Below are positions 151 to 15,599 of a DNA stretch of 36,388 nt, piece by piece. The notes beneath the pieces are model-generated. The model had not been told where the DNA came from. It saw nothing but the letters and a program-made list of their open reading frames with translations, and searched no databases. Source of the DNA: Acidimicrobiales bacterium (GTDB lineage: Bacteria; Actinomycetota; Acidimicrobiia; Acidimicrobiales; SZUA-35); assembly GCA_020629155.1 (NCBI GenBank), contig JAHDDW010000011.1, positions 83,412 to 119,799 of the forward strand. The letters are read 5' to 3'. Numbering within the stretch: the stretch's first letter is position 1; every line of letters starts with the position of its first letter. A program made the translations under genes and the position numbers.

Positions 151-273
151 AGCCATTTCTCCTATACCTAGAGTTAGAACACCGATGCCTAGTAGAAGCC
201 CTATCAACAGAGCTCTTCAAGACCCAAGGAATATAGAAGTTACAGAGACACTAACCAACCTGCGATAAAAATT

Positions 274-1167
274 TTATGCAACCCAAAACCAAATTCGGTA
301 TTGGGTTCGCAATGACAACTTTCCAGGTTTCCAAGAAATCACACCCGCTTTATCTTGAAGCGAGCTTACAACTCTTTTGCGCTCTTCTCGGTCCTGAAGA
401 TGCATCGGCCCGTGTAGAACTTCGAGAGATCCTGGCTCCTCCACTAGTTGGAGCTTTCTATCCTTTGACTTCGACTTAATTTTTAGGTATTGCTGATCAG
501 TCAAAAATTCTGATTGTTCGATCAACACTCCGCCTGGTTGAGAGTCGGGTAGAAACAGTTCAGGCATATAGAATTTGACTTGCACCTTGTTCCAGCCGTT
601 TGGCAATGGGATGCAAAGTAACTTCCAAACCTCAGCAGGTTCATCGGCTTCTCCAAGAATCTTTTTTGTTGCCCCAAACTCAACTTCATTGATTTTATCT
701 GCCCCATTAACTAACACTTTTTGTAGTTCTAAATCGGAATCTTTTCCAGTGAAGCTTTTACCCACTAAAGGAATATTCAGCTCGCGTTGCTGGTCCAGGT
801 GATAGGTCCAGTCAAATGTCATGCCGCCTTGATCATCTACTGTGACAACGTCAGTTCTTGAAGTTTTTTCAGGCGTTACCAGTGGCAGCGCTGACGACTT
901 CTTAAGAACTTGTTCAGCTAGAATCACACCTTGTTCTGTTAGACAATAGTATTTTTTAGCCTGCCTATTACTATCAGAGCTTTCTTCCGCTCTATACTCT
1001 AGCCAGCCTGCCTTTTCTAAACGATTTAGAATCGGGTAAAGAGACCCTTGTTTAATAGATAGTCTCTTTGAAAGCTCGAACCCATACCATTCTCTTTCAG
1101 GGTTACGCATCATTGTGTGTAACGTCAGCTTGGTTTGTAAACTAACTCGTTTAAGCGGTTCAGCCAT
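274..1167 (-). CDS. PadR-family transcriptional regulator with long C-terminal domain
   Basis: Residues about 1-90 form a PadR winged helix: KLTLHTMMRNPEREWYGFEL, then KQGSLYPILNRLEKAGWLEY and a wing ending KKYYCLTEQG. PadR proteins normally sense small molecules and repress nearby genes or their own. The usual PadR C-terminus is a short dimerisation helix. Here some 200 further residues follow, with alternating hydrophobic/polar pattern suggesting beta structure (LLCIPLPNGWNKVQVKFYMP; LSLRTQYRIWFWVA at the end). I do not recognise this part. I chose the ATG at 1167 (MAEPLKR) because a TATACT -10 box lies six bases before it, pointing to a leaderless transcript. The frame also permits a start five codons earlier. 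The N-terminal assignment is firm and the function of the C-terminal half is unknown. Confidence 0.8.
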   Translation of the reverse strand: MAEPLKRVSLQTKLTLHTMMRNPEREWYGFELSKRLSIKQGSLYPILNRLEKAGWLEYRAEESSDSNRQAKKYYCLTEQGVILAEQVLKKSSALPLVTPEKTSRTDVVTVDDQGGMTFDWTYHLDQQRELNIPLVGKSFTGKDSDLELQKVLVNGADKINEVEFGATKKILGEADEPAEVWKLLCIPLPNGWNKVQVKFYMPELFLPDSQPGGVLIEQSEFLTDQQYLKIKSKSKDRKLQLVEEPGSLEVLHGPMHLQDREERKRVVSSLQDKAGVISWKPGKLSLRTQYRIWFWVA

Positions 1168-9950: not shown

Positions 9951-11219
9951 CTAGATCTCACTAGCAGAAAAAGCTGGCGACAACTGCTCCTGTTCTGCGC
10001 GAGAGATGTTTAAGCTAGCTGCGACGCTACGCCACTGCCTGACACTTGCGACAATCTCTTTGACAAGCACGTCAGCTTGTGACGACGTGACCCTAAAATA
10101 GGGTGCCACTTCTAAAACTAAATCCAGATCAAGAGAATTATCCGTCTCAGAAATATTAAGGCTTAACCCGCCAGGTGATGGACTAGGGTTTATGTCGAAT
10201 GCTGGCGACAACTCCCAACCATCGCCCCGCAGAAGAAAACCATGATTACGCAGATGGTCATCAGTATTGCTGATACAAACAGAAAATACGATGCGCTTCC
10301 AAAGTTCAACCAAGTCAGCTGTTGGATTACTGCCAAACCGATTGAGAATCTCGGCGATTTCTAGATAACTAACATCTGTGTTGTGACTAGCTCCATCGCT
10401 ACAACCAAGCATTGTCATCGCAGAGGCAAAATGAAGCCGCTTACGATCTTCACCTAACACAAGGCGATCGAAACGCTTTGTTAAAAAAGCTCGACGTTTT
10501 TCTGTGACACTAATCAATTGACATTGAGGCACCCGCAAACCAGCTTTACACGCCAATTCATAGGCCAACATTTCCCATGCTGCATTGTCATAAGAATCGC
10601 TTCTGCTAGAAAATTTCGCAATCCAAAGGTGACCGCCTGGGTCGCTCACTCCTGCCTTCGGGCGTGCACCTCCAAGTGACGAGCCAGGAGCCAATAACAT
10701 GGCAAGCCACTGGCTATACTCTGCCCCATCCATTTCATCGCCCTGCACCTGCCAACTGGCTTTTTCTAATTCACGCAACCTGGCCCACGGCGGCGCTGCC
10801 AACACACCGTCATCGCTAAGAAACGGACCATCACTTGAAGCTCTGTAACGCAGAGCTCCGGTACGCTGCCTATCATGCACTCCTAAGAAATAATCCATTT
10901 CTGTCAGCCGACGCTGCTGCCGTTCCTCCACTCTCGCAGCGATCGCCTCACGTCGCTGCATCAGCGTTCGACCCCATCTATCTGGAGACGAATCCAGAAA
11001 GACCCCAAAATTTGTTTGCTCAGCGCCTGCCAAAAATTGTTGACCGCCATAGAGCTGCAAGTTAGGGTCTAGTTGTATTACACCTCGTTCAAGCCACTGG
11101 CTGTCATACATGAAAGCGAACGTTTCCTTACCTCTTGCAACTATAGACTGCAACTCCCCTACTTTTTGGGGCGTGTGCAGCCCTTGCCAATCTGCGTACA
11201 CTTCGACGCTGACGGTCAT
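9951..11219 (-). CDS. hipA: HipA-family serine/threonine kinase toxin
   Basis: This 422-residue protein has the HipA fold. The N-terminal domain carries FGVFLDSSPDRWGRTLMQRR at 71-90. A glycine-rich loop SSLGGARPKAG sits at 180-190, with ATP lysine K202 in LWIAKF. The catalytic loop SNTDDHLRNHGFL at 317-329 aligns D320 and N325 with the E. coli catalytic D309 and N314, and the metal aspartate D342 is in PAFDINP. All key residues are present, so an active kinase is likely. HipA proteins phosphorylate aminoacyl-tRNA synthetases or related targets and cause growth arrest. The start overlaps hipB by four bases. Target unknown. Confidence 0.9.
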   Translation of the reverse strand: MTVSVEVYADWQGLHTPQKVGELQSIVARGKETFAFMYDSQWLERGVIQLDPNLQLYGGQQFLAGAEQTNFGVFLDSSPDRWGRTLMQRREAIAARVEERQQRRLTEMDYFLGVHDRQRTGALRYRASSDGPFLSDDGVLAAPPWARLRELEKASWQVQGDEMDGAEYSQWLAMLLAPGSSLGGARPKAGVSDPGGHLWIAKFSSRSDSYDNAAWEMLAYELACKAGLRVPQCQLISVTEKRRAFLTKRFDRLVLGEDRKRLHFASAMTMLGCSDGASHNTDVSYLEIAEILNRFGSNPTADLVELWKRIVFSVCISNTDDHLRNHGFLLRGDGWELSPAFDINPSPSPGGLSLNISETDNSLDLDLVLEVAPYFRVTSSQADVLVKEIVASVRQWRSVAASLNISRAEQEQLSPAFSASEI

Positions 11220-11548
11220 GAATCAGCCTTAGAATTTTTTCGTCTCGGCGCTCGCTTTTTGGGTGTTTTTATCTGCGCGTCTTGCAATTTGCGACCAAGT
11301 TCATCGTCTTGTCCCAACATCGCTAAATCGCCGTCCAATCCTAACACCGAGAGAGTTCGCAATAGCGTACCAATTGATGAGTTTGCACTACCTTTCTCCA
11401 AATGATAAAGCGTAGAGCGGCTAATACCAGCTCGTTCAGCAACCTGCTGTGCAGTCAACCGACGACGAAGCCTAGCAAGCTTAATATTCTCCCCCAAAGA
11501 AACAAGAACCCGCTTTTGACGCGGCAACAAAACAACCGAACTGGACAT
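11216..11548 (-). CDS. hipB: HipB-like XRE antitoxin/regulator
   Basis: This 110-residue protein has an N-terminal XRE helix-turn-helix at about 15-70 (ENIKLARLRRRLTAQQVAER, AGISRSTLYHLEKGSA, IGTLLRTLSVLGL). A basic tail follows (KKRAPRRKNSK). HipB binds HipA and the operon promoter as a dimer, repressing transcription. The gene precedes hipA with a four-base overlap, the standard antitoxin-first order. A TATATA box seven bases before the ATG suggests a leaderless mRNA. Confidence 0.85.
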   Translation of the reverse strand: MSSSVVLLPRQKRVLVSLGENIKLARLRRRLTAQQVAERAGISRSTLYHLEKGSANSSIGTLLRTLSVLGLDGDLAMLGQDDELGRKLQDAQIKTPKKRAPRRKNSKADS

Positions 11549-13228: not shown

Positions 13229-14695
13229 ATGGTGATGAATGAAGAACTCACTTTAGTACCTGCAGCACGGCTCGGCGCTCTCCTATCGACCCAACGCAGA
13301 CGTTATAACGAGACCCTGGCTTCCCTAGCCGCAAATTCTGGAGGAACGTTCTCAGTACATGACTTAGAACAGGCAGAACGAGGACGTTATAAACTATCGA
13401 CCGAACGTATCCAATCACTCATTTCGCTCTATGAACTAGGCGCCACAGAGGTTGTCCCACGAAGAACACACCTTGTCATAGATTTTGACAACAATACAAT
13501 GGCTTCAGGCGACAACTCAGCCAAGCTAGGCCCGCCTGACACAAAAGAAATCCTCAAACGATATCTGGCTTTTGTCTATGTGATGCGTCAGCAACAGCCA
13601 GGAACCCCGATAAGTCTTCGAAGTAACGACCTTGCTGTTCTTAGCCAAGCGCTACAGCTTTCGACCGACACAGTCTATGACCAGCTGACAGCGCTTATGA
13701 GCGACGCTGATGTTGCCACTAAATCTGCTTCAATCAAAAAAGGGTTCGCTGTAGCTGGTGCGGGCCTTCTCGTAGCAATCACGTCGCTAGGTTCCCTTGT
13801 TTTTGTGAGCGGAGACTCATCAGATCGGCTAGCCACTCCTGCGCCTACAACAGAACAGAGCTCAACGCCCCAGCTATCACAAACCCTACAATCTGAAGCG
13901 CAAACCAACGTTGCTCATGTTGGTTACAACAAAAAACAAACCAATCAGAAACAGGTTTCCGACACTGTCGAAGCTAGCACAACGATAGAAGAACAAGAAA
14001 AGACTAGCACAACAGAAAAAAAGCAAGTAGAGAAAACAGTTACGACCGCCTCGAAAGAACATCAAACCGAAACGACGAAGGAAACTACCAAAGCGACCAC
14101 AGAACTCAAGGCTAATAAACACAATCATGAGCCGATAAAACAAGCATTCGCTGACAACGATCCAACAGACAGCGTAAAGCCGGTCGAGGCAATAGCGGCA
14201 ACACAAGAAACGACTGGAGAAACAGAAGCTGCAGCGACGCAGACCCAAAGTGCTTCTTTAACATATGAGGCTATCGGCCAGCAAGCTGAATCTATGATCG
14301 CCTACGACTGGCAGTCAAAACTGCCTGGATGGACTGTTCGCTACGAAGGTGACCGGCCTGGCTATCGAGGCATAACTGTTTTAAGCGAAAAAAGCGTCAC
14401 TATCTATATAAACCCAGGTGACACCGCCACCGATGTAGCAGGCATCCTAGCGCATGAGCTCGGGCATGCGCTTGACGTAACGTATCTACAAAACCAGGAC
14501 AGGGTTCAATGGTTAGAGGCACGAGGCATGCCTGCTGTGTGGTGGGCAGGTGAAGGTCTCAACGATTTCAGCGTCGGCGCAGGCGACTTCGCCGAGGCAG
14601 TTGCTGCTTTGTGGGTAGGCTCTCCAAGTGACTCGGTTCACGGCAATTTCACCCCTGCACAGCTCCAGCTCACTGCGGAGCTACTTCCCAGATAG
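13229..14695 (+). CDS. HTH - membrane helix - HELGH metalloprotease-like protein
   Basis: This 488-residue protein has three parts. (1) Residues 10-80 resemble an XRE-like helix-turn-helix (LGALLSTQRRRYNETLASLA, SVHDLEQAERGRYKLS, ERIQSLISLYEL), and residues 128-157 look like a second helical module. (2) One membrane helix lies at about 172-195 (GFAVAGAGLLVAITSLGSLV), with KK before it. (3) A long Thr/Lys/Glu/Gln-rich spacer at about 200-340 is followed by a compact C-terminal domain with HELGH at 409-413 (zinc ligands H409 and H413, catalytic E410) and a candidate third ligand E456 in DFAEAV. The HTH would be cytoplasmic and the protease outside. Substrate and signal are unknown. Divergent from wecA across 102 bases. 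Confidence 0.8.
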   Translation: MVMNEELTLVPAARLGALLSTQRRRYNETLASLAANSGGTFSVHDLEQAERGRYKLSTERIQSLISLYELGATEVVPRRTHLVIDFDNNTMASGDNSAKLGPPDTKEILKRYLAFVYVMRQQQPGTPISLRSNDLAVLSQALQLSTDTVYDQLTALMSDADVATKSASIKKGFAVAGAGLLVAITSLGSLVFVSGDSSDRLATPAPTTEQSSTPQLSQTLQSEAQTNVAHVGYNKKQTNQKQVSDTVEASTTIEEQEKTSTTEKKQVEKTVTTASKEHQTETTKETTKATTELKANKHNHEPIKQAFADNDPTDSVKPVEAIAATQETTGETEAAATQTQSASLTYEAIGQQAESMIAYDWQSKLPGWTVRYEGDRPGYRGITVLSEKSVTIYINPGDTATDVAGILAHELGHALDVTYLQNQDRVQWLEARGMPAVWWAGEGLNDFSVGAGDFAEAVAALWVGSPSDSVHGNFTPAQLQLTAELLPR

Positions 14696-14774: not shown

Positions 14775-15599
14775 ATGGACCCTCTAGCATTAACCCAGCA
14801 ATGGCCTGTTTCTACTGTGTCGGCTGGTTGGATAACTGGGGCAGGCAAATCGGACAGCGTCGGCGATAGCACCCATAGGTTTCACCTTGCCTCAGTTACT
14901 AAACTGCTTTTTTCTTACGCTATTTTGATTGCGGCTGAAGAAGGGGTCCTGCCGCTGAATAAACCTACGGCGATTGAACATGCGACGATTAGCAATCTGT
15001 TGTCGCACAGCTCAGGGCTAGCTGCTGAAGCGACCACTCGGGACAACACGCCGACATTGGCTGCCGCTGGGCAGCGACGTATTTACTCAAACCTAGGATT
15101 TGATCTGCTCGCTCAAGAGCTTGAACAGGCTAGCGCCATGCCAGCAGCCGACTATTTCAAAGAAGCAGTGGCCGAGCCGCTTGGTCTACGCAACACGACA
15201 ATCGAAGGTTCTGCCGCTTTTGCTGGCTATAGCACTATAGAAGATCTTTTGAAAGTAGCCGCTGAGCTGCTCAACCCTACGCTTATCTCTTCCTATACGT
15301 TGACGAAAGCTACTTCGCCTCATCTGCCAGCGTTGGAAGGGATACTTCCTGGCTTTGGCAAACAAACACCTAACTCTTGGGGGCTGGGTATGGAAATTCG
15401 GGGTATGAAGTCGCCGCATTGGACGGCGGCAAGTAACTCGCCAGCGACCTTCGGCCATTTCGGAAAATCGGGCACCTTTTTGTGGGTTGACCCTCTTGCT
15501 AAAATTGGCTGCGTTGCTTTAACAGACCAAGAATTCGGACCTTGGGCTACGCCTCTATGGCAAGACTTCTCAGAAGCAGTATTACGCCATGGCTCTTGA
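14775..15599 (+). CDS. Serine beta-lactamase/penicillin-binding-like hydrolase
   Basis: This 274-residue protein has the three active-site motifs of the class C beta-lactamase/DD-peptidase/esterase fold: S-x-x-K as SVTK at 40-43 (in FHLASVTKLLFSYAIL), Y-x-N as YSN at 104-106, and HFGKSG at 228-233. SNLLSHSSGL at 73-82 is another typical block. It is shorter than AmpC (about 360) and has no signal peptide, so a cytoplasmic esterase or peptidase is more likely than a secreted beta-lactamase. The next gene overlaps its end by 11 bases. Confidence 0.85.
   Translation: MDPLALTQQWPVSTVSAGWITGAGKSDSVGDSTHRFHLASVTKLLFSYAILIAAEEGVLPLNKPTAIEHATISNLLSHSSGLAAEATTRDNTPTLAAAGQRRIYSNLGFDLLAQELEQASAMPAADYFKEAVAEPLGLRNTTIEGSAAFAGYSTIEDLLKVAAELLNPTLISSYTLTKATSPHLPALEGILPGFGKQTPNSWGLGMEIRGMKSPHWTAASNSPATFGHFGKSGTFLWVDPLAKIGCVALTDQEFGPWATPLWQDFSEAVLRHGS

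Follow-up and report, generated by a model that had tools for sequence, protein, structure and literature searches.

RodZ carries an HTH in the cytoplasm, one membrane helix and an outer domain. LapD is a degenerate GGDEF/EAL protein and LapG a cysteine protease; a cytoplasmic c-di-GMP receptor, a membrane pass and proteolysis outside are there divided between two proteins. In BlaR1 and MecR1, membrane signalling is tied to a metalloprotease domain which faces the cytoplasm. BldD is a soluble master regulator whose dimer is glued by four c-di-GMP molecules. The Streptomyces protein reads this c-di-GMP tetramer via R114, D116, R125 and D128: motif 2 (R125, D128) holds one c-di-GMP dimer, D116 reads the other, more exposed dimer, and R114 contacts both. 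These signature residues are solvent exposed, and BldD with charge-reversed motif 1 (both R114 and D116) lost c-di-GMP binding (PMC4151990). One c-di-GMP dimer is enough to dimerise BldD, and the fully functional state has two (PMC11082216). A search among open-licence papers for a membrane-tethered BldD gave none among the papers listed, PMC13118837 and PMC4255298 included.

The protein described here is encoded in a stretch of 36,388 nucleotides from an Acidimicrobiales bacterium (the window). It joins a BldD fold and a zincin-like domain on one chain, in contrast to the two proteins of other folds in the LapD/LapG system, and the Pfam scan of it gave neither a GGDEF/EAL receptor nor a LapG-type protease domain. 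Its layout is that of RodZ (HTH inside, one helix, outer domain), but the HTH is BldD-derived and the outer domain zincin-like. Unlike the protease domain of BlaR1/MecR1, that of the window protein is predicted to lie outside. The features are as follows.

13229..14695, + strand: whole gene, 488 aa (BldD-derived module, membrane helix, spacer, zincin-like domain); open frame
13262..13453, + strand: HTH of BldD type, residues 12-75; model against 2ewt, charge
13532..13696, + strand: BldD C-terminal-domain-like region, residues 102-156; profile matches
13586..13630, + strand: altered c-di-GMP signature, residues 120-134; R120, R131 and D134 kept, Q122 in place of D116
13751..13807, + strand: single membrane helix, residues 175-193; hydropathy, with G179, V182 and G188 invariant
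13814..14263, + strand: extracytoplasmic Thr/Lys/Gln-rich spacer, residues 196-345; family-wide comparison
14264..14692, + strand: zincin-like domain, residues 346-488; AlphaFold model, conservation, fold matches
14453..14467, + strand: HELGH zinc motif, residues 409-413; found in 15/15 both-ended proteins, with H, E, G and H in 35/35 rows
14594..14596, + strand: E456, probable third zinc ligand, on a separate helix (model residues 117-130); conservation, model

The frame 13229-14695 reads through without interruption, as the original prediction had it; since M3 is an invariant alignment column, translation may actually begin two codons later, at 13235 (third codon). The same prediction had placed an HTH at 10-80, a membrane helix at about 172-195, a Thr/Lys/Gln-rich spacer of about 140 residues and HELGH at 409-413 with E456, the HTH being inside and the protease-like domain outside. 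This anatomy is borne out: the HTH match spans residues ~9-77, the Kyte-Doolittle maximum lies at 175-193 with no second segment above 1.6, the spacer occupies residues ~196-345 (both its length and its sequence vary across the family), and the positions of HELGH and of E456, which sits in GDFAEA, are correct. A second conserved cytoplasmic domain (~102-156) behind the HTH had gone unrecognised. The membrane helix is flanked by net charges of +2 (N-terminal side) and -1 (C-terminal side); all 15 proteins that keep both ends have one hydrophobic segment with the more positive flank on the N side, which by charge corresponds to an N-in/C-out topology, the reverse of a C-terminus inside the cell. 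In the predicted model the membrane segment has a pLDDT of ~30, so the helix packing is not readable from it. Judged by sequence comparison, the protein is descended from BldD in its cytoplasmic half, has a single helix with the N-terminus inside, an exported-type C-domain and a complete zinc motif, and we hold this anatomy to be highly probable.

The cytoplasmic half is, by its profile matches, a whole BldD-derived module comprising the HTH and a C-terminal domain of the c-di-GMP-binding type. The profile of the window's branch (22 modules, including a 213-aa copy without peptidase) aligns with that of canonical BldD by hhalign at 99.1% (E 1.6e-18, 154 columns; canonical rows shorter than 120 residues, 5 of 38, were omitted from this profile and from the tree discussed below). 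The XRE-like HTH of the original prediction is thus indeed an HTH, but not a generic XRE one. Family models match the same region below their cut-offs: Pfam PF21179 (BldD C-terminal domain) at residues 102-155 (E 0.001; 19.3 against a 27-bit cut-off) and NCBIfam NF050110 (BldD) at residues 13-155 (E 8e-4; 19.1 against 250 bits). The HTH model superimposes on the BldD DNA-binding domain 2ewt with Z 9.2 and rmsd 2.3 over 69 residues (Foldseek TM 0.78 on target), where 2ewt is tied with other XRE HTHs. Structures of the BldD C-terminal domain are absent among the best 50 rows for the N-terminal model, and the kinship of that domain therefore rests on profiles. The same genome also encodes canonical BldD in a gene of its own (L098), PF21179 exceeds its cut-off in 38 of the 41 genomes searched, this one included, and the membrane segment is present in 15/15 both-ended proteins, unlike small soluble BldD.

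In the cytoplasmic module and helix, 18 columns do not vary across 21 rows. E50 and G52 of the HTH are among them, and the recognition region differs strongly among orthologues. HTH net charge averages -3.1 in the branch (22 rows, -7 to +1, negative in most) and +3.8 in canonical BldD (38 rows, 0 to +6); a separate extraction covering 21 of 30 canonical rows gave +2 to +11. The helix 2-3 segment is alike in both, with mean charges of -2.0 in the branch and -2.1 in canonical BldD. Loss of DNA binding was considered on these grounds and not adopted: charge of the whole HTH separates the branch from canonical BldD, that of the helix 2-3 segment does not, and the difference is a hint only.

The c-di-GMP signature is partly retained. 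Window residues R120, R131 and D134 correspond to BldD R114, R125 and D128, and Q122 occupies the site of D116. The equivalents of R114, R125, D128 and also of G119 are kept in 22/22 branch modules; that of D116 is kept in 0/22, so that RXD-X8-RXXD is not found in the branch, and the equivalents of N118 and R130, which are also c-di-GMP contacts in BldD, are lost in all 22. Canonical BldDs of the lineage have all four signature residues in 34/34 readable rows (4 of the 38 charge rows have no letters at the signature), and RXD-X8-RXXD is intact in 30/30 canonical BldDs from this genome and its relatives. R120, R131 and D134 make up three of the six charged invariant columns. A ligand or partner probably accounts for the retention of the two arginines and the aspartate better than folding does, since their BldD equivalents lie on a solvent-exposed surface. 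By analogy with BldD, loss of D116 may abolish c-di-GMP binding. A re-spaced motif 1 of the form RXX[ED], suggested by an E or D at residue 123 in 16 of 21 rows, was considered possible but rejected, both 122 and 123 being Q in the window protein. GGDEF genes give at least 14 matches in the same genome, and at least one match was found in each of the 31 genomes searched, this one included.

The window protein belongs to a wider set of divergent BldD relatives. A class-wide search matched at least 118 of 198 genomes, canonical BldD included; 29 loci were read from it, 8 of them canonical and 21 divergent, and adding L047 and L049 to the latter brings the divergent modules that lie outside the branch to 23. 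All 23 retain R114, R125 and D128, and one of them D116; counted with the branch, the three residues are present in 45/45 divergent modules (22 branch and 23 other). Directly behind the module, a hydrophobic segment of at least 1.6 is found in 15 of the 23; the others are L116 (1.48), L133 (none) and six LamG-like forms (none at that place). The outer ends were compared by eye. Eight proteins (L047, L049, L111-L116) end outside in a short tail whose motif, of IGDAVVIER or ERNPDGSPG type (e.g. IGDAVVIER, VGDAAVQERNPDGSPG), is loosely conserved and occurs twice in L115 and L116; the membrane segment reaches 1.6 in seven of the eight, L116 being the exception. In L117, L119, L121, L122 and L126, a basic HTH and a membrane segment are followed by a Pro/Thr-rich stretch and a DPPVSILPGE-like end such as DPPVSILPGETPI. 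L123-L125 and L127-L129 have no membrane segment directly after the module, then a long Pro-rich stretch and an end which we take to be LamG-like; long repeats were seen at further outer ends.

In a tree of 78 modules, which is rooted at midpoint only and carries a long-branch warning, canonical BldD splits off at 100/99, and a modestly supported split (91/79; found in 88% of 200 bootstrap trees) sets the 22 branch rows apart, the peptidase branch lying among the short-tail forms. By module sequence, the branch groups with divergent Acidimicrobiia relatives of BldD, many of which are membrane-tethered by their hydropathy. The simplest reading is that the peptidase was gained once.

Homologues were sought in 61 genomes (the window's own and 60 relatives). 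At E <= 0.001, 50 of them matched the window protein, many of the matches being N-terminal only (BldD-like) or C-domain only. Homologues that keep both ends, which the original prediction had called for as a check, number 15 and occur in 11 of the 61 genomes; one of them is a second both-ended protein of the same genome. Named genome contigs contain at least 29 loci, and those listed comprise 27 from Acidimicrobiales/Acidimicrobiia, one from an Acidobacteria MAG and one from a Frankiaceae MAG. Fifteen of the listed loci encode 19 both-ended proteins and the 213-aa copy, which stops at the membrane helix, several of these loci repeating proteins of the 61-genome set. A plasmid search gave no match. 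Tandem co-directional copies, with frames that overlap or sit within ~53 bases, are present in 5 of the 15 named loci (L051, L052, L055, L059, L061); some of these are near relatives, so that the independent events are fewer than five. The tandem copies suggest paired products and thereby hint at a dimer. At L061 the first tandem copy ends directly after the membrane helix.

The outer domain was modelled by AlphaFold over 155 residues with a mean pLDDT of 93.8; the HExxH helix spans model residues 67-86 and the helix of E456 residues 117-130. H409, E410, H413, D416 and E456 are invariant in the 15 both-ended proteins and in 35/35 rows of the C-domain alignment, so that conservation of the proposed zinc site, on which the original prediction depended, stands. 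Among 38 distinct C-domain-only proteins, HExGH and GD[FW]AE are each present in 38/38. Their open frames, read stop to stop, contain an upstream hydrophobic segment of at least 1.6 in 34 of 38 cases, and look exported in this respect; three of the remaining frames reach 1.47-1.54 and one is cut by the contig end. A phylum-wide sample contained the domain in 6 of 296 genomes, and no BldD module was found at the five loci outside the window's own genome. These export signs and the module-free relatives elsewhere indicate that the zincin-like domain is a secreted one which in the branch was joined to a BldD-derived anchor. Two exported relatives (L044, L046) have upstream repeats which presumably are of DUF4214 type.

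With the M34 and M78 zincin families (which we take to be the lethal-factor and IrrE types, respectively), the domain shares HExxH, a downstream Glu and a partial fold alignment. The likeness is distant: aligned M34 and IrrE rows have 12-15% identity, Foldseek of the C-domain model is weak (E 0.11 or worse, the best being IrrE), and M34 does not appear among its best 50 rows. Structure realignment gave the M34 catalytic domain up to Z 9.4 (rmsd 3.9, 141 residues) and IrrE Z 7.5 (rmsd 3.6, 93 residues), little above the Z of 7 to 8 that is usual for models lacking a clear relative; in the top M34 row (Z 9.7) the alignment falls on the N-terminal part of that chain, not on the catalytic one. No Pfam family exceeds its cut-off for the window domain: PF06114 (Peptidase M78, IrrE) stays below with 14.5 against 22 bits and matches 20 of 35 C-domain members at E up to 1 (best E 3.7e-4), and PF07737, the family tried for M34, matches 4 of 35 weakly (best E 0.052). 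Sequence searches against solved structures gave nothing significant, either with the whole protein (best E 0.2) or with the C-domain profile (best E 0.021). From the sequence we infer an active peptidase.

The descent from BldD, with its partly kept c-di-GMP signature, changes which mechanism is likely. The reading we favour, at a probability of roughly 0.4, is that a surface peptidase is controlled from inside through ligand-driven dimerisation: a cytoplasmic ligand, perhaps one c-di-GMP dimer, would dimerise the BldD-derived modules, dimerisation would pass through the glycine-patterned membrane helix, and the signal would shift the position or activity of the peptidase. It is favoured because of the kept ligand residues, the tandem copies, the plentiful GGDEF genes and the lack of a partner for a RodZ-like role. 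The opposite direction is rather unlikely: the protein would be an outside-in sensor, a membrane-tethered transcription factor similar to CadC/ToxR, whose outer domain senses a surface event or is cut by one and whose HTH acts on transcription while still membrane-bound or once released. The intact BldD-like fold of the HTH, invariant E50 and G52, a helix 2-3 segment no more negative than in DNA-binding canonical BldD and the basic HTHs of other divergent groups (mean charge +6.0 in PPGE and +2.5 in LAM) agree with such a sensor, but the negative mean charge of the branch HTH, set against the positive one of canonical BldD, and the strong variability of the recognition region between orthologues do not.

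The RodZ-like scaffold of the original prediction, in which the HTH would bind a cytoskeletal or cytoplasmic protein and place the peptidase at growth or division sites with no small-molecule signal, has the shared layout in its favour, and contacts with proteins would be in keeping with an HTH of net negative charge. In the genome, which is 97.4% complete, no MreB and no RodZ could be recognised, however, and a RodZ-like role is for this reason unlikely. The two MreB-family matches, both over the cut-off, are both Hsp70 (HSP70 E 7e-160 and 3.5e-45), so MreB is likely absent; the sole match over the cut-off of the RodZ-type HTH_25 is to an HTH_3 protein of 85 aa and spans 34 of the 62 positions, and HTH_25 (PF13413) is not among the Pfam matches of the window protein at E up to 10, a level at which HMMER filters drop most weak matches. 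A scaffold would also leave the kept BldD ligand residues unexplained. Least probable of all, in our estimate, is that the cytoplasmic half serves only as an inert anchor and export signal for a peptidase constitutively active on the surface: the C-domain-only relatives do manage without the module, but the invariance of 18 module and helix columns and the retention of the three ligand residues throughout the divergent modules speak against inertness.

In the window protein, the BldD fold forms the cytoplasmic half of a membrane protein in a mostly uncultured bacterial group. If c-di-GMP is bound, control of the peptidase from inside would show a route from transcription factor to transmembrane receptor and would provide a single-chain counterpart to LapD/LapG, in which an inside signal controls a periplasmic protease; this reading predicts an altered stoichiometry, with two c-di-GMP per dimer. 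A broader proposal, which we regard as possible but doubtful, is that in Acidimicrobiia the BldD fold no longer serves transcription and has given rise to membrane-spanning receptors, in which a c-di-GMP half-site (R114, R125 and D128 without D116) would bring about dimerisation through the membrane and govern interchangeable outer parts, here a surface metallopeptidase.

The neighbouring genes lend no functional support to control from inside. When open frames of at least 100 aa around 28 loci (24 distinct, four regions occurring twice) were clustered, no neighbour besides the family itself was common to more than 4 of the 28. Those identified as shared are an FtsX/MacB permease (4 loci), NicO (3 loci) and the pair of S-adenosylhomocysteine hydrolase and ribosome hibernation factor (3 loci, two being the same region); 2 of the 10 proteins looked at for this are without a family, and ten further neighbours comprise nine assorted families and one without any. 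The wall role that had been argued from divergent wecA does not hold up, as wecA adjoins the gene only in the window among these neighbourhoods. Since no neighbour is widely shared, the wecA argument was dropped and no operon partner is claimed; of the original interpretation, the topology and zincin domain survive, and the scaffold and wall argument do not. At 14775-15599, 79 bases downstream, lies a co-directional serine hydrolase gene (PF00144; beta-lactamase/DD-peptidase-like), which did not turn up around the other loci compared. At 9951-11548, in the interval from the ATP synthase genes to wecA, a HipA-like kinase is preceded by a HipB-like HTH gene, and the two likely form a toxin-antitoxin pair.
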